Origin: Betaproteobacteria bacterium
GTDB lineage: Bacteria; Pseudomonadota; Gammaproteobacteria; Burkholderiales; Burkholderiaceae_C
Length of the DNA stretch: 36,566 nucleotides
Reading direction: 5' to 3'
Assembly: GCA_010030205.1 (NCBI GenBank)
Contig: RGQD01000009.1
Span: 1 to 36,566, forward strand
The notes under the pieces were generated by a model. The model saw only the letters and a list, made by a program, of their open reading frames with translations. It was not told where the DNA came from and made no database searches. The stretch's first letter is position 1. Each line of letters starts with the position of its first letter. Positions 11,242 to 25,991 of the stretch are shown one piece after another. A program made the translations under genes and the position numbers.

Positions 11242-12933
11242 TCAAGTCGTGGCACGCGCCTCGGGCAGGAAACGAACGCCGCTGCGCGCATAGCCGCCGC
11301 TGACACCGATAGGCGTGCCGTCGGCGCGCCAGCAGGACGCACCCTCCAGGTCGCCGTTGGCGTGGAAGCGGATCGCACCCATGCCACCGCCGACATTGGG
11401 CACGCGCTGGATCTGGTGGCCGCGCGATCGAAGCGAATCGGCCACGGCGTCCGGGAACTGTGGCTCGAGCTCTAGGCCGAAGCCCTGCGTCCAGACGCGC
11501 GGCGCCTCGACCGCTTCTTGCAAGCTCATGCCGTGGTCCAGCAGGTTGATCACCGCCTGCAGCGCCGACGGGAAAATCCTCAAACCGCCGGGCAGACCGA
11601 GCGCGAACTGCGGCTTGCCGTCCTTCAGAACGATCAGCGGCGACATCGACGAGGTCACCCGTTTGCCCGGTGCCATGGAGTTGGCCAGCCCGGGCCTGGG
11701 GTTGAAGACGTAGAGATAGTTGTTCGGGATCATGCCGGTGCCAGGCACCATGTAGCGCGCGCCGAACAGCGAGTTGATGGTCTGGGTCGCGCAGACGATT
11801 CGCCCATCGGCATCGGCCACCGTCAGGTGGGTGGTGTTGGCGCTCTCGGTCGGCGCGATCCCCGACTGCCAGTCCTGTGCCCGAGCCGGGTCTATCGCTG
11901 CGCGGCGTTGCGCGGCGTAGCCCGGTGACAGCAGCCTGTCCACGGGCACCGGGACGAAATCCGGGTCGGCGGTGCAGGCTGCCCGGTCGGCGAAGGCGAT
12001 TTTGAGCACCTCGGCGAGCAAATGCACGTTGTCGGCGCTGCCGAAGCCGCCCGCAGCCAGGTCGAAGCCCTCGAGGATGTTGAGCATCTGGCTGATGTGC
12101 AGCGGGCCGGCGCAGGGCGGCGGCGGCCCGGTGATCTCGAAGCCTCGGTAGTGGCTGCGCAAGACCTCCAAATCGTGGGTGCGGTATTGCTGCAGGTCGG
12201 CCAGCGTGAGGTAGCCGCCGTGGCGCTGCATGTCCTGGGCCACAGCGCTGCCCAGCGCACCGCCGTACAGCACTGCCGGACCTTCGCGCGCGACCAGGCG
12301 CAGCGTGTCGGCGTAAGCCCCGTTGACAACCCGCGTGCCCCGTGCCAGCGGCCTGCCGCCGGGCATGAAGATGCGGCTGATTTCGGGGTCTAGCGCCAGG
12401 TCTGCGGCGCAGTCTTTGACGCAGTCGGCCAGGTAATGGGTGGCGGCAAAGCCGCGCGAGGCATGGCGGATCGCCGGCTCGGTGACATCGGCGAGCGACA
12501 GGCTGCCGTGGCGCGACAACATCTCGCACCAGGCCATCAGGTTGCCCGGCGTCGCGACGGCGGCCCGCCCGACGCTGTTGCGCCGCCCGACCGCGTCCAG
12601 CATCCCGGGCGCCGCATCGGGGTCGGGCGTGAAGCTCGACTCGCCCACCGCCATCGGGCAACGGCCCTGGCCCTCAAGGATCGTCTGCTGCCCGTCAGCA
12701 AGCCGCAGGTTGGCGAAACCGCCGCCGAAGATGCCGACCATCATCGGCTCGACCACGGTCAGCGTGAACAGCGCTGCGATCGCCGCATCGACGGCGTTGC
12801 CGCCGGCTGCCAGCATCTCGGCGCCCGCGGCCGACGCCAGCGGGTGGTTGGTCACGACCATGCCGCGGCTGCCGGTGGCGGGTCGCTTCTCGTTCTCGAA
12901 AGGCGTCGCCGCCCGTTGTCGCCAATCGCTCAT
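11242..12933 (-). CDS. ggt: Gamma-glutamyltransferase family protein
   Basis: GGNAVDAAIA near the N terminus, FGGGFAN, and the ANTTHLTVADADG nucleophilic Thr region; 563 aa. Confidence 0.92.
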   Translation of the reverse strand: MSDWRQRAATPFENEKRPATGSRGMVVTNHPLASAAGAEMLAAGGNAVDAAIAALFTLTVVEPMMVGIFGGGFANLRLADGQQTILEGQGRCPMAVGESSFTPDPDAAPGMLDAVGRRNSVGRAAVATPGNLMAWCEMLSRHGSLSLADVTEPAIRHASRGFAATHYLADCVKDCAADLALDPEISRIFMPGGRPLARGTRVVNGAYADTLRLVAREGPAVLYGGALGSAVAQDMQRHGGYLTLADLQQYRTHDLEVLRSHYRGFEITGPPPPCAGPLHISQMLNILEGFDLAAGGFGSADNVHLLAEVLKIAFADRAACTADPDFVPVPVDRLLSPGYAAQRRAAIDPARAQDWQSGIAPTESANTTHLTVADADGRIVCATQTINSLFGARYMVPGTGMIPNNYLYVFNPRPGLANSMAPGKRVTSSMSPLIVLKDGKPQFALGLPGGLRIFPSALQAVINLLDHGMSLQEAVEAPRVWTQGFGLELEPQFPDAVADSLRSRGHQIQRVPNVGGGMGAIRFHANGDLEGASCWRADGTPIGVSGGYARSGVRFLPEARATT

Positions 12934-13120: not shown

Positions 13121-14809
13121 ATGGACAACATCTTCTTAGACACCCCGTTCAAGGACAAGGACAAGGTCAAGGCGCTTGGCGCCCGTTGGGACCCAGCCTT
13201 GCGCAAGTGGTACGTGCCCGAGGGCACAGACTTGCAGGCCTTTGCGGCTTGGTTGCCGGCGGCCGAAGCCGCCGCGTTGCCGGCAGCTTTGCCGGCAGCT
13301 GTGCCGGCACGCCTGGTGCCGGGTCGCGTCGCCACCGATCTCGCGCTGCCTGGGCGTGGCATCAGCCTGTCGCAGTTGCTGGGCGGGGTCGCTCAGGCGG
13401 TCTCGCAATCGTTCACCGCGGGGGTCTGGACCTTGGTCGAGGTGCTCGACGCCAGGCTGCGTGGCGGCCATGTCTATGTCGAGGTCTCGGAGCGCGACGC
13501 CGCTGGCACGGTGCTGGCCAAGGCCGGCGCGGTGATCTGGGCCAGCACTGCCGGCCGCATCCTGCCCGAGTTCGAGCGCGCCACCGGCGCCAAGCTCGGG
13601 CCGGGCATCAAGCTGCTGGTTCGGGCCCGACCGGTGTTCAAACCGCAATATGGTTTCAGCCTCGAGATCGACGCGATCGACCCTGACTACACGCTCGGTG
13701 ATTTGGAGGCCAGGAAACGCGAGATCCGCAACCGGCTGCGCCAGGAGCAGTTGTTCGACGCCAACCGTCTGCTGCCGCCGCCCTGGGACTTCAACCAGGT
13801 GCTGGTGCTCGCGCCGCAGGGCGCTGCCGGGTTGGGCGACTTCCGCGCCGAGGCGCAGCGACTGGAGCGTTTCGGCCTGTGCCGCTTCCGCTATGCCTTC
13901 AGCCGTTTCCAGGGCGAGGGCGCTGCGGCCGAGATCCGCCAGGCGCTGCTCGCTGCGCTGGGGCAGGGCGCTGTCGCGACAGCGTTTGATGCGGTCGTGA
14001 TCATCCGCGGGGGCGGTGCGGTCAACGACCTGGCCTGGCTCAACGACTATGCGCTGGCGCGCTGCCTGTGCGAGCTGGCGATCCCGGTGCTCACAGGCAT
14101 AGGCCATGAGCGCGACAGCACCGTGCTCGACGAGGTCGCCAACCAGTGTTTTGACACACCGTCCAAGGTGGTGCTCGGGATCGAGCAGCTGATCGCCAAG
14201 CGCGCTGCCGAGGCCAAGGCGCACTTTCACCAGATCGCCAGGTCGGCCGGCGCCAGCTTGCAATCGAGCCGGCGCGCCATCGACCAGGCCGACGCGGCTG
14301 TCCGAAGCGGCGCCCAGCGCCAGCTCGCGCTGGCGCGCCAGCGCGTGGCCGAGCGCATCGCCGCGCTGCGCGCCGGATCCTGGCAGGCGATCCAGCGCGC
14401 CTCGGACGCGTCGCGCACGCTCAGCGTCGAAGTCCGCGCCGAGGCCAGACAGTCGCTGCGCGCTGCGCGCGCCGGCTCGCAGGTCGCGCTCGCGACTGTG
14501 CTCGAGCGCGCCGCGCTCGACGCCCGCCAGGCTGGCGCCTTGCTCGACCGGCAGCGCAGCGATGTCGCCACAGGCGCCCGGCGTTCGCTGGTCGAAGCCC
14601 GAACCCGGTCGCAAGCGCTGCTGCGAGAAATCGCCGGCCAGGGACCTGAGAAGACGTTGGCGCGCGGCTTTGCACTGGTGCGCGACGCCGATGGCCGGAC
14701 AATCACCCGCGCGGCACAGGCCGGGCCGCAGCAGACGCTAGAGATCACGTTCAGGGACGGCTCTTTGGCCGCCCGAACCCGTGGCGCAACCGGAACCCAA
14801 GACCCATGA
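13121..14809 (+). CDS. xseA: Exodeoxyribonuclease VII large subunit-like protein with N-terminal DUF5710-like domain
   Basis: MDNIFLDTPFKDKDKVKALGARWDPALRKWYVPEG (DUF5710-like), then OB-fold LSQLLGGVAQAV..., then VVIIRGGGAVNDLAWLNDYALARC...GHERDSTVLDEVA...DTPSK (XseA core). Alternative in-frame ATG at 13100. Confidence 0.85.
   Translation: MDNIFLDTPFKDKDKVKALGARWDPALRKWYVPEGTDLQAFAAWLPAAEAAALPAALPAAVPARLVPGRVATDLALPGRGISLSQLLGGVAQAVSQSFTAGVWTLVEVLDARLRGGHVYVEVSERDAAGTVLAKAGAVIWASTAGRILPEFERATGAKLGPGIKLLVRARPVFKPQYGFSLEIDAIDPDYTLGDLEARKREIRNRLRQEQLFDANRLLPPPWDFNQVLVLAPQGAAGLGDFRAEAQRLERFGLCRFRYAFSRFQGEGAAAEIRQALLAALGQGAVATAFDAVVIIRGGGAVNDLAWLNDYALARCLCELAIPVLTGIGHERDSTVLDEVANQCFDTPSKVVLGIEQLIAKRAAEAKAHFHQIARSAGASLQSSRRAIDQADAAVRSGAQRQLALARQRVAERIAALRAGSWQAIQRASDASRTLSVEVRAEARQSLRAARAGSQVALATVLERAALDARQAGALLDRQRSDVATGARRSLVEARTRSQALLREIAGQGPEKTLARGFALVRDADGRTITRAAQAGPQQTLEITFRDGSLAARTRGATGTQDP
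13277..13312 (+). repeat. In-frame 12-bp coding repeat in the DUF5710-XseA linker
   Basis: ttgccggcagct x2 then gtgccggcacgc, encoding LPAA LPAA VPAR. Confidence 0.8.
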
Positions 14810-15081
14810 GCACACCGACTTTCCGCAGCGCCTACGGCGTTCTGCAGCGCCATGCCGAGACGCTGCGCAACCAGTCAGAGCCCAATATCGACGACCTGCT
14901 CAAGATCGTCACCGAGTCGGTCAGTGCTTACAAGCATTGCCAGGCCCGGATCGAGGCGGTCGAGCAAGCGCTGGAGCAGGCCTTGGGCACTGCCGATGCC
15001 GGGCCTGCCGCGATGCCGGACGATACCGTGCATGCGGCGGCCGGACCAGACGCTGCGGATGACGACGATCCACCGTTTTGA
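14806..15081 (+). CDS. xseB: Exodeoxyribonuclease VII small subunit-like protein with acidic C-terminal tip
   Basis: ATGA overlap with xseA; helical N-terminal region, low-complexity linker, terminal ...AADDDDPPF. Confidence 0.78.
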   Translation: MSTPTFRSAYGVLQRHAETLRNQSEPNIDDLLKIVTESVSAYKHCQARIEAVEQALEQALGTADAGPAAMPDDTVHAAAGPDAADDDDPPF

Positions 15082-15195: not shown

Positions 15196-15497
15196 ATGAA
15201 AAAACCTGCCACCGGCGGGCTGGTCTATTCCACCGACAGCGGCCGGATGTGCCCGGTCTGCCGCCAGCCTCAGCTGCGCTGCAGACCAAGGGCCGCGGCG
15301 GCAAGGCGGTGACGCTGGTGCGCGGATTGCCGCTGGATGCCGAAGCGCTGTCGGCGCTGGGCAAGCGGCTCAGGACAGCCTGTGGCTCGGGTGGCACGGT
15401 GAAAGACGGGGTGGTCGAGCTGCAGGGTGACCACTGCGAGCGGGTGATCGTCAGCTTGAAGGCCGAGGGCTGGCAGGTCAAGCGGGCAGGCGCTTGA
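15196..15497 (+). pseudogene. SUI1/YciH-family translation factor, frame-disrupted
   Basis: ATG 15196 gives MKKPATGGLVYSTDSGRMCPVCRQPQLRC..., stopping at 15310-15312. The SUI1 core QTKGRGGKAVTLVRGLPLDAEALSALGKRLRTACGSGGTVKDGVVELQGDHCERVIVSLKAEGWQVKRAGA lies in a different frame (stop 15497). Confidence 0.8.
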
Positions 15498-15543: not shown

Positions 15544-15561
15544 GGCGTGGCCTGTGCGGCG

Positions 15562-17928
15562 ATGAGCGACCCCTGCTACCGCGTCGCGGTGCGAACGCTG
15601 TGCGAGTTCGCTGCCAAGCAAGGCGACCTCGACCTGCGCTTCACGCCGTCGCCGACCGCGCAACAAGGCATCGCAGGCCATCAGGCCGTCACCTCTCGGC
15701 GCGGGCCGGCTTACCGCGCCGAGCTGGCGCTGAGCGGCCAATACCGCCAGCTCAGCGTTCGGGGTCGTGCCGACGGCTATGACCCTGAGCTGCTGCTGCT
15801 CGAGGAGATCAAGACCTACCGGGGCGACATCGACCGGGTGCCAGACAACCACCGCCAACTGCACTGGGCCCAGGCCAAGGTCTATGGCCACTTGCTGTGC
15901 CAGCATTTCGACCTGCCGTCGCTGACCGTCGCGCTGGTCTACTTCGACGTCGGCTCGCAGCAGGAGGCGCCGCCGCTGCACCAAGTTTGCAGCGCGCAGT
16001 CGCTGCGCGAATTCTTCGAGGCCTTGTGCGAGCGTTTCCTGGCCTGGGCCGACCGCGAACTCGCGCACCGCAGCCGGCGCGACGCCGGGCTGCTGGCGCT
16101 GCGATTCCCGCACCCAGCGTTCCGAACAGGCCAGCGCGCGCTGGCTGAAGCGGTGTTCAAGGTCGCGCGCGCCGGCCGCTGTCTGCTGGCCCAGGCGCCC
16201 ACCGGCCTGGGCAAGACGATCGCCACCTTGTTTCCGCTGCTCAAGGCTTGCCCGGCGCAGGCGATCGACAAAGTGTTCTTTCTCAGCGCCAAGGGTTCAG
16301 GCCAGGCGCTCGCGCTGGCAGCGCTGGCGACGATCAGCCAGGCGGCGTCTGCACCGGCCTTGCGCGTGATGACCTTGGTGGCGCGCGACAAGGCCTGCGA
16401 GCATCCCGACAAGGCCTGCCACGGCGAGTCCTGCCCGCTGGCCAAAGGTTTTTACGACCGGCTGCCAGCCGCACGAAGCGCTGCGATCGACCAAGCGTCT
16501 GCCGGCATCACGCTCGACCGCGAGACCTTGCGCAGCGTTGCGCTCGCGCACCAGGTCTGCCCTTATTACCTCGGCCAAGAACTGGTGCGTTGGTGCGATG
16601 TGGTGGTCGGCGACTACAACCACTACTTCGACGCCAGCGCGCTGCTGCACAGCCTGACCTTGGCCAATGGATGGCGCGTGGGCTTGCTGGTCGACGAGGC
16701 GCACAACCTGATCGACCGCGCCCGTGCGATGTACAGCGCCGAGCTCGACCCGGCACAGCTGCAAGCGGCCCGCGCCAGCGCAGCGCCGGCGTTGAAAAAA
16801 TCGCTAGACCGCTTGCACCGCAGTTGGCGGCGACTGGGCAAAGTCCAGACCGAGGTCTACCAGGCCCACGCCGAGCCGCCGGCAGCCTTGGCCGCAGCCC
16901 TCAAGGACGCCACCGCCGCAATGGCCGAACACCTCGCCGCGCACCCGGTCGACGCGGACCCGGATGTGCAGCGTTTTTTCTTTGAAGCGCTGCAGTTTGG
17001 CCGGCTGCTCGAATCCTTAGCCCGCCACTCGATCTTCGATGCGACGCTGCCGGGACTTGCGCTTTCGCGCCGCCAGCCCAGCCCGACGCTGTGTGTTCGC
17101 AACGTCGTGCCTGCGCCGTTCTTGCGGCCGCGCTTTGCCGCAGCGCATGCGGCGGTGCTGTTCTCGGCGACGCTCACGCCGCAGCACTTCTATGCTGACA
17201 CCCTGGGATTGCCTGAGAACCTGGCCTGGATCGACGTCGAATCGCCTTTCAAGCCCGAGCAGTTGTCGGTACACATCGTCCGCGACCTGTCGACCCGCTT
17301 CGCGCACCGTGGCCAATCCTTGCTGCCGATCGCCGAACTGATGGCGGCCCAGGTCGCGCGACGGCCCGGCAACTACCTCGCGTTCTTCAGCAGCTTCGAC
17401 TACCTGGAGCAGGCCGCTGCAGCCTTCTCGACCCGCCACCCGGCAGTCCCGACCTGGCAGCAGAGCCGGCGCATGGACGATGCCGCTCGGCAAGCTTTTC
17501 TGGCGCGCTTCGAGCCTGAGGGTTGCGGCATCGGCTTTGCCGTGCTCGGCGGCTCGTTCGCCGAGGCCGTCGATCTGGCCGGCACCCGCTTGATCGGCGC
17601 TTTCATCGCAACGCTGGGCCTGCCGCAGTTCAACCCTGTCAACGAGGCGCTGCGCCAGCGTCTGGACGCCGACTTCGGCGCGGGCTACGACTACACCTAT
17701 CTGTTCCCGGGCATACGCAAGGTGGTGCAAGCCGCGGGCCGGGTGATCCGAACGGTGTCGGACCAGGGCAGCGTGCACTTGATCGACGACCGCTTTGCGC
17801 GGCAAGAGGTGCTTTGTTTGCTGCCGAGTTGGTGGAAAGTCGAGCGGCAGTCGATCCGCCGCCTAGGCCTTGAACTGCCGTCGACAGGTGAATTGCAGGT
17901 CTTGGCGCCGACCCAACCCGAGGGTTGA
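15562..17928 (+). CDS. DinG/XPD-like ATP-dependent DNA helicase with N-terminal Cas4-like PD-(D/E)xK nuclease region
   Basis: Walker A QAPTGLGKT, DEAH box LLVDEAHNLID, Cys cluster CEHPDKACHGESC...VCPYY suggesting an Fe-S domain; N-terminal GRADGYDPELLLLEEIKTYRG...HWAQAKVYGHLL. Confidence 0.86.
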   Translation: MSDPCYRVAVRTLCEFAAKQGDLDLRFTPSPTAQQGIAGHQAVTSRRGPAYRAELALSGQYRQLSVRGRADGYDPELLLLEEIKTYRGDIDRVPDNHRQLHWAQAKVYGHLLCQHFDLPSLTVALVYFDVGSQQEAPPLHQVCSAQSLREFFEALCERFLAWADRELAHRSRRDAGLLALRFPHPAFRTGQRALAEAVFKVARAGRCLLAQAPTGLGKTIATLFPLLKACPAQAIDKVFFLSAKGSGQALALAALATISQAASAPALRVMTLVARDKACEHPDKACHGESCPLAKGFYDRLPAARSAAIDQASAGITLDRETLRSVALAHQVCPYYLGQELVRWCDVVVGDYNHYFDASALLHSLTLANGWRVGLLVDEAHNLIDRARAMYSAELDPAQLQAARASAAPALKKSLDRLHRSWRRLGKVQTEVYQAHAEPPAALAAALKDATAAMAEHLAAHPVDADPDVQRFFFEALQFGRLLESLARHSIFDATLPGLALSRRQPSPTLCVRNVVPAPFLRPRFAAAHAAVLFSATLTPQHFYADTLGLPENLAWIDVESPFKPEQLSVHIVRDLSTRFAHRGQSLLPIAELMAAQVARRPGNYLAFFSSFDYLEQAAAAFSTRHPAVPTWQQSRRMDDAARQAFLARFEPEGCGIGFAVLGGSFAEAVDLAGTRLIGAFIATLGLPQFNPVNEALRQRLDADFGAGYDYTYLFPGIRKVVQAAGRVIRTVSDQGSVHLIDDRFARQEVLCLLPSWWKVERQSIRRLGLELPSTGELQVLAPTQPEG

Positions 17929-23842: not shown

Positions 23843-24361
23843 TCAGGGCTTCCAGGGTTTACAGACAGCACCCTCCAGCCGCAACAGCGTTTGCTTGCGG
23901 TCCAGGCCACCGGCATAGCCTGTCAGCGAGCCATCCCGGCCCAGCACCCGGTGGCATGGCACGAGGACAGACACCGGGTTGCGGCCGATCGCCGCCCCGA
24001 CGGCACGCACCGCTGCTGGCGACCCCACCGCGATGGCGATCTGGCCATAGCTGGTGGTCTGGCCGCGCGCCAGCGCTTGCAAGGCCTGCCAAACGGCTTG
24101 TTGGAACGCAGTGCCGTGCAGGTCCAGCGCCAGGCTATGCAGCGGATGGGCTGCGCCGTCGAAATAGGCAGCCAGCGCTCTTGCGCCCGCTTCGAGCATC
24201 GGGTGGTCCGGTGCCAATGGCGCGTCCAGCGGCCCCGGGTGGTGGGCCTGGCCGTCGAACCACAGGCCGGCCAGGCCATGGTCGGTGGCTGCGGCAGTCA
24301 GAGGCCCTAGCGGGGTCGCGATGCGCGATTGCGCAGTCAGGCGGTGAGAGGATTTGGTCAT
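23843..24361 (-). CDS. ogt: Methylated-DNA--protein-cysteine methyltransferase
   Basis: VPCHRVLGRDGSLTGYAGGLDRK active-site motif; start MTKSSHR at 24361 overlaps the upstream stop. Confidence 0.92.
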   Translation of the reverse strand: MTKSSHRLTAQSRIATPLGPLTAAATDHGLAGLWFDGQAHHPGPLDAPLAPDHPMLEAGARALAAYFDGAAHPLHSLALDLHGTAFQQAVWQALQALARGQTTSYGQIAIAVGSPAAVRAVGAAIGRNPVSVLVPCHRVLGRDGSLTGYAGGLDRKQTLLRLEGAVCKPWKP

Positions 24362-25860
24362 CACGGCTCCAATTGTTGCCACAGTTTCATCACGGCGTAG
24401 GCGCGCCACGGGCGCCAGCGTTCGGCATGGGCTTCGGCAAGCTTGGCGTTGCGCTCACCGCCCGTTTGCTCGCGCAGCGCGTTGAGAACACCGATGTCGG
24501 TTGCCGGCCAGGCGTCGGGCCAGGCCAGCGCACGCATCGCGATCAGCTGGGCGCTCCAGTCGCCGATGCCAGGCAGCGCGCGCAGCGCGTCGAGCGTCGC
24601 TTGCAGCGGGGCCGAGCGCTGCAGTTCGATGCGCCCGGCAGCGACCTCCGCTGCCAGCGCCTGCAGCGCTGCGACCCGTTGGCGCACGATGCCCAGCGTG
24701 CCGATCGACTCGGCCGATGCGTCGGCGATCGTTCGCGACGACGGGAACAATCGGCCCAGGTCGGCATACGGTGTGGCAATCGCCTCGCCGAAACGCTCAA
24801 CGAGTCGCAGCGTCAATGTTCGGGCCGCCGCGACCGTGACTTGCTGGCCCAGGATCACACGGGCTGCGATCTCGAAGCCATCCAGACCACCGAGCAGGCG
24901 CATGCCGGGCTGGCCGGCCTTGGATCCACTGCCGATGTCGGCGAGCACCGGATCGATCAGCGCCGGGTCGGCGTCAAGATCGAAGGCCTGGCGAACCCGG
25001 TTCAGCAGCAGGCCAAGCGCCGGCAGCATGGACGGCGAGACGCTGAGCGCGAGTTCATGGCGGTCGGGTCTGAAACGCAGCGTCAGCCAACCGGCCAGCT
25101 GCTCGCCGCGATGCTCAACAGCAAGCGTTCGCCGCAGCGTCAGGCCCTCCACTGTTTCGACACCGGGCACGGCGCGGCGGGCAAAAAATCCGAGCACTGC
25201 GTCCACATCGTATGGCGGGCGCCATGCCATGCGAAGCATGGGCTCGCGCGTTGCATCGGGTCCGTCCGCCGCAGGGCTGGCCTTGCGCAGCGCGCTCGGG
25301 CTCATCCGGTAGCGTTCGACGAACGATGCGTTGAAGCGCCGCAGGCTCGCATAGCCTGTTGCGAGCGCGACCTCGGTGACAGGGATCGCTGTGTCGGTCA
25401 ACAACTGCTTGGCCAGCAGCAGGCGCTGCGTGCTGAGGTAGGCCAAGGGCGAAACGCCATGGACCTGGTTGAAGATGCGTCGCAGATGCCTGTCGGTCAC
25501 GCCCAGGCGCTGCGCGAGCGCGGGCAGCGTCGGGTCCAGGCCTTCGTGGGCCGCTTGGCCGAGCATCGTCGCCGCCCGGCATGCGAGCGCTTGCGACGAA
25601 TCCATCATCGACAAGCCGGGCGCTTGTTCGGGGCGGCAGCGCAGGCAGGGTCTGAAACCCTGTTGCTCGGCGAGCGCGGCATTGGCGAAAAAGCGGCAGT
25701 TCTTGCGCATTGGCGGCCTGACCTTGCAAACAGGCCGGCAATAGATGCGGGTCGACGTGACGCCGACGAAGAACCTGCCGTCAAAGCGCGCGTCGCGGGT
25801 CTGAAGCGCCAGGTAGGCCGCGTCATCGTCGAGCAGGATCGAGGTCGGGTTTCGCGTCAT
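24361..25860 (-). CDS. Ada (metal-binding + AraC HTH) / AlkA DNA-3-methyladenine glycosylase fusion
   Basis: FFVGVTSTRIYCRPVCKVRPPMRKNCRFF...CLRCRPE (Ada zinc motif), AraC-type HTH, then AlkA GLDGFEIAARVILGQQVTVAAA...LRALPGIGDWSAQLIAMRAL. Confidence 0.92.
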   Translation of the reverse strand: MTRNPTSILLDDDAAYLALQTRDARFDGRFFVGVTSTRIYCRPVCKVRPPMRKNCRFFANAALAEQQGFRPCLRCRPEQAPGLSMMDSSQALACRAATMLGQAAHEGLDPTLPALAQRLGVTDRHLRRIFNQVHGVSPLAYLSTQRLLLAKQLLTDTAIPVTEVALATGYASLRRFNASFVERYRMSPSALRKASPAADGPDATREPMLRMAWRPPYDVDAVLGFFARRAVPGVETVEGLTLRRTLAVEHRGEQLAGWLTLRFRPDRHELALSVSPSMLPALGLLLNRVRQAFDLDADPALIDPVLADIGSGSKAGQPGMRLLGGLDGFEIAARVILGQQVTVAAARTLTLRLVERFGEAIATPYADLGRLFPSSRTIADASAESIGTLGIVRQRVAALQALAAEVAAGRIELQRSAPLQATLDALRALPGIGDWSAQLIAMRALAWPDAWPATDIGVLNALREQTGGERNAKLAEAHAERWRPWRAYAVMKLWQQLEP

Positions 25861-25885
25861 GCCTCGATGATAGGCAAGTCGAGGC
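25861..25885. promoter_or_regulatory. Inverted repeat directly abutting the ada/alkA start codon
   Basis: GCCTCGA-tgataggcaag-TCGAGGC (7-bp perfect arms); CAT start complement at 25858-25860 is adjacent. Confidence 0.6.
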
Positions 25886-25991
25886 TTGGGACTCGCCGTT
25901 TTCGGACCTGTGGCTTTGGTGGGGCGACAATTCGCTCGCAAGGGCTTCGTAAAATGGAAGAACAGCCATCAGAAACGGGAAATACAAAGCC

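Follow-up and report, generated by a model that had tools for sequence, protein, structure and literature searches.

A variant exonuclease VII whose small subunit ends in a candidate docking peptide of the SSB type

The stretch of DNA analysed here (the window, 36,566 nucleotides of contig RGQD01000009.1 from a Betaproteobacteria bacterium) carries on its forward strand a pair of overlapping genes for a variant of exonuclease VII (ExoVII). The first (13121–14809) encodes an XseA-like large subunit of 562 residues, matching TIGR00237 (2.5e-62) and PF02601 (6.6e-55). The second (14806–15081), which runs from an ATG start to a TGA stop, encodes an XseB-like small subunit of 91 residues with the C-terminus AADDDDPPF, as the original prediction had read it. 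The stop of xseA and the start of xseB share an ATGA (14806–14809, forward strand), and the same adjacency with its four-nucleotide overlap (a gap of −4) is found in most homologous pairs. A program-made list of open reading frames (ORFs) began XseA at 12440, a start that we rejected as over-extended, the homologues sharing the methionine at 13121. Part of a second, canonical XseA lies on another contig of the same genome. Downstream of the pair are a short stand-alone SUI1/YciH-like gene (15249–15497), between xseB and the helicase gene, and a gene for a DinG/XPD-like helicase (15547–17928) whose first ~190 residues have no Pfam match; both are shared by the nearest relative only. Elsewhere in the window, 24361–25941 encodes an Ada–AlkA fusion, with Ada zinc-binding, HTH, AlkA N-terminal and glycosylase domains.

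The large subunit has three regions, all on the forward strand: an N-terminal DUF5710 domain (13130–13258; PF18974, 6.4e-17, residues 231–273 of the over-extended ORF), an OB-fold of the tRNA_anti_2 type (13364–13678; PF13742, 2.3e-7) and the ExoVII catalytic and coiled-coil domain (13751–14773, the PF02601 match). Four of its residues, D240, R296, H329 and D332, which we take to be the ExoVII catalytic set from mutant work in E. coli, are invariant columns in an alignment of 13 relatives, so that, as far as the alignment goes, the catalytic positions of the variant are intact. H329 aligns with H238, the histidine mutated in the solved E. coli ExoVII (PDB ID: 8txr), which is also the closest solved relative of XseA in both sequence and fold (model compared by Foldseek, E 2.5e-23). 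The variant shares with canonical ExoVII (8txr; Bordetella XseB, PDB ID: 1vp7) the two-gene operon, an XseA of OB-fold, catalytic domain and coiled coil, and an XseB built as a two-helix hairpin. It differs in the added DUF5710, present in complete Comamonadaceae XseA of the variant and missing from the Acinetobacter type, and in a small subunit that falls under the Pfam XseB cut-off and adds a linker and an SSB-type tip.

The profile matches of the small subunit place it as an ExoVII small subunit of a divergent type. It scores 100.5 bits (4.3e-29; cut-off 40) against NCBIfam NF045605, xseB_Acin_var, compared with 28.3 bits (1.3e-6) against TIGR01280 and 21.2 bits (2.9e-4) against PF02609, both under the curated cut-offs of 35 and 24. 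The attribution of the tip to an XseB-like protein in the original prediction therefore stands, with the refinement that the carrier is not an ordinary XseB but a variant in which an NF045605-type XseB is paired with a DUF5710-bearing XseA. The NF045605 model itself spans only a core of 59 residues, and its Acinetobacter members end without a tail at ~64 residues. An AlphaFold2 model built with 18 sequences gives the helical core (residues 1–63; 14806–14994, forward strand) as a hairpin of helices 6–22 and 28–63 with pLDDT of about 85–95. The best fold matches of this model are the solved XseB chains of 1vp7 and 8txr (TMt 0.76–0.78), with E values above 0.1, the chain being short and helical. 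From about residue 64 pLDDT falls to about 50, and the tail, which ends ...GPDAADDDDPPF, is probably disordered, in agreement with the helical region and low-complexity linker proposed earlier. It consists of the linker (residues 64–82; 14995–15051) and the SSB-Ct-like tip (residues 83–91; 15052–15078), both on the forward strand. A Pfam scan found no SSB OB-fold domain (PF00436) in the 91 residues; the OB-fold of the pair sits in XseA.

To follow the tip we gathered relatives, drawing on whole genomes and plasmids as well as phage records and IMG/VR. A terminal PF closes 23 of the 24 variant XseBs of at least 80 residues, the exception ending SAEDDQQTV. All of 22 distinct tipped XseBs have P(−2) and F(−1), −3 is I, V, P or L, and an acidic residue occupies −4 in 21, −5 in 20 and −6 in 19; as this set was picked by the tip pattern itself, the unselected 23/24 is the fairer figure. 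Their linkers, by comparison, range from 11 to 50 residues, mostly A, P, G and S, and have diverged in sequence. For a background we took the stop-to-stop ORFs of 60 residues or more in all six frames of 37 xseAB loci including the window, 3,836 in total. Only 24 of these end in PF, 19 of them with at least three acidic residues among the six before it, and all 19 are variant XseBs. On this count and on the PF ends of the long homologues we reject chance composition as the source of the tip. Between the window and a relative of 93% identity the 60-residue core has no replacements, the linker takes five of the six changes and the tip one (D88G), and the codon of the last Phe differs only silently (TTT to TTC).

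Loss of the tip in close homologues had been named as a refutation of the original prediction, which survives this check: the motif holds among the long homologues, if not across the family as a whole. In the window's family 12 relatives, genomes and plasmids taken together, lack the tail, and all the Acinetobacter, Moraxella-phage and IMG/VR copies that we read are tail-less; such shorter variants end just past the core. Canonical XseBs, which were said not to end in this way, indeed do not: none of the 15 that we read from the window's family carries an SSB-type tip, and most finish a few residues after ...LKPW.

The likeness to bacterial SSB is borne out by the SSBs of the same genomes. The main SSBs end FDDMDDDIPF, FDDLDDDIPF, FDDFDDDVPF or similar after A/P/G-rich linkers, a comparison made with SSBs whose ends are complete on their contigs (that of the window's host breaks off in the linker), and a few extra SSB paralogues in these genomes have other endings. 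In several members the XseB tip matches the host SSB tip over 10–11 residues. Many homologues have a more canonical tip than the DDDDPPF of the window, for instance DDDIPF, DDDVPF or FDDMDDDIPF, the last in Caenimonas, a Variovorax plasmid and genome G316; others end EPDDIPF, ADDDVPF, DEDDIPF, TEEDGDLPF or EDGEIPF. The window's own genus, with DDDGPPF in the nearest relative, is unlike the host-type DDDIPF. However, PPF is a natural and working SSB ending, as seen in the M. tuberculosis SSB peptide FGGGDDEPPF, which has Pro at −3 as in the window. The layout is that of the SSB C-terminus (SSB-Ct), a disordered A/P/G-rich linker followed by acidic residues and [IVP]PF, although here it sits on a nuclease subunit that lacks the SSB OB-domain and shows the variant form DDDDPPF. 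These comparisons make it very probable that the XseB tip is a motif of the SSB-Ct type. At the DNA level a Variovorax xseB and one ssb are identical by eye at 38 of 39 nucleotides over the tip; we do not prefer capture from the host ssb, since codon bias may explain the match equally well. A second SSB in G316 (L116) has its DDDIPF tip buried under a C-terminal extension of 20 residues (...MDDDIPFIGMALALDMDPVQRRMAKYQ), which should block docking.

The variant scores above the cut-off in 24 of 401 sampled genomes of the window's family; counted from the sequences, 15 of these are tipped, eight tail-less and one frameshifted (L031 in G563, with the break inside the xseB core). It is concentrated in this family and in plasmids and prophages of the Acinetobacter/Moraxella type. 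A sample across the order yielded it only from the genome of the window and from a single further genus, and a tipped member ending ...DEDEIPF comes from another family of the class (L125/L163). Tipped copies also lie on plasmids (Polaromonas pPNAP03, Variovorax WDL1), and there are relatives on phages. On a tree of XseA and the XseB core, with the tail left out, the tip label changes about seven times, at least five of these being forced by well-supported branches. Gene neighbourhoods differ between genera, and apart from one genus that shares a chromosomal site we saw no conserved neighbours beyond the genus that hint at function; with none common across genera, xseAB behaves like a mobile cassette of two genes. 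Taken together, the sequences identify the variant as a separate, horizontally scattered type of ExoVII with tailed and tail-less forms. In one genus, where the flanks are conserved (G350 against G606, G665, G460 and G537), the tail is an insertion/deletion block of about 130–150 nucleotides, so that gain and loss look the same, and in three frames 3′ of the tail-less genes there are no recognisable frameshift remnants of it. Among 22 genomes checked, the variant is the sole ExoVII found in 10 (L081–L083, L087, L076, L089, L090 and L165–L167), five of them tipped and five tail-less, and in some genera it may have taken over from the canonical enzyme.

The reading that we favour, with a probability of roughly 0.6, is that the XseB tail acts as a short linear motif of the SSB-Ct kind, by which SSB partners dock onto ExoVII. 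What we observe are the sequence of the tip, its conservation, its match to the host SSBs, the operon and the intact catalytic positions; the docking, the identity of the partners, the stoichiometry in the variant and the biological role we infer. The variant would assemble as usual, with the XseB hairpins packed along the XseA coiled coil and many disordered tails projecting outward from the particle. The acidic-PF tips would then dock into the conserved SSB-Ct pockets of host proteins of the RecO, RecQ, PriA, chi, ExoI and DinG class, and the nuclease would recruit, or travel with, proteins normally gathered on SSB-coated single strands. The solved E. coli enzyme (8txr) has 16 XseB chains to 4 XseA, and at this ratio a tailed ExoVII would display its tips in many copies. 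For E. coli SSB, the nine-residue tip is by itself enough to bind RecO, PriA, PriC and chi, however long the linker (PMC7145534), which suggests that a tip moved to another disordered tail should carry docking with it. E. coli DinG, similarly, depends on the terminal Phe of SSB (PMC11981726). Three things count against docking. The absence of the tail from the 12 family relatives and the Acinetobacter and phage types, with its repeated changes on the tree, points to a part that is dispensable for the enzyme itself; the window's own DDDDPPF departs from the host-type ending; and a similar tail, that of Deinococcus DdrB, was reported to be unnecessary for radioresistance (PMC3834827). DdrB is a protein that binds and anneals ssDNA and not a nuclease.

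The main rival to docking, itself unlikely, is that the tip works in cis: as a mimic of ssDNA it would fold back on XseA, at the OB-fold or in the DNA groove, and hold the nuclease inactive until pushed aside by substrate. This would make use of the OB-fold at the N-terminus of XseA and of the many XseB tails available to each XseA, and it has a precedent in the SSB tip, which transiently occupies the DNA-binding domain of SSB itself. That tip is reported to bind such domains when they are unoccupied, and to compete with partners (PMC7145534). However, acidity alone would be enough for a DNA mimic, yet the terminal P-F is invariant, and neither the long match to host SSB tips in several members nor the wide range of linker lengths is what such a mechanism leads one to expect.

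Less likely again is a decoy, by which the tip would compete with SSB for its partners or help to displace partners bound to SSB, possibly to the benefit of a mobile element at DNA entry. The tipped copies on pPNAP03 and WDL1, the phage-borne relatives and the neighbourhoods that differ between genera, as they would for a transferred cassette, are all consistent with this. Nevertheless the copies in phage and Acinetobacter are the tail-less ones, and where a genus has only one ExoVII, the tipped variant seems to be its resident enzyme. SSB is moreover far more abundant than any nuclease, which makes bulk competition by XseB tips unlikely. Finally, a tail of low complexity that is repeatedly gained or lost might end so by coincidence, as a neutral leftover of Ala/Pro/Asp-rich sequence or as a degradation signal, with no docking at all, a reading rendered very improbable by the restriction of acidic-PF ends to XseB in the 37 loci and by the retention of PF in the long homologues despite their diverged linkers.

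If docking by the tail is right, one may go further and suggest, quite tentatively, that an ExoVII bearing a dozen or more SSB docking codes would be an alternative hub, independent of SSB, through which SSB-interacting helicases and nucleases reach DNA ends or gaps. The tail would then be a plug-in module gained and lost between lineages and possibly copied from the host ssb in some of them. Both the kind of enzyme and the kind of motif are known, and it is their combination that appears to be new: in a largely open-access literature on ExoVII, XseB, DUF5710 and SSB-Ct-like tips, we found no description of an XseB with a tip of the SSB type. The acidic tip of SSB organises bacterial genome maintenance and is regarded mainly as SSB's own; if a nuclease carries the same tip, the docking code would be transplantable. 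ExoVII, for which cellular partners are poorly known, would gain a concrete list of candidates, and the natural pairs of tailed and tail-less forms in one genus are ready-made controls.

A minor observation concerns the Polaromonas plasmid pPNAP03, where an SSB-like gene ending DDLDDGCPLEF (L042:4326–4733) adjoins the tipped xseAB pair on the opposite strand.
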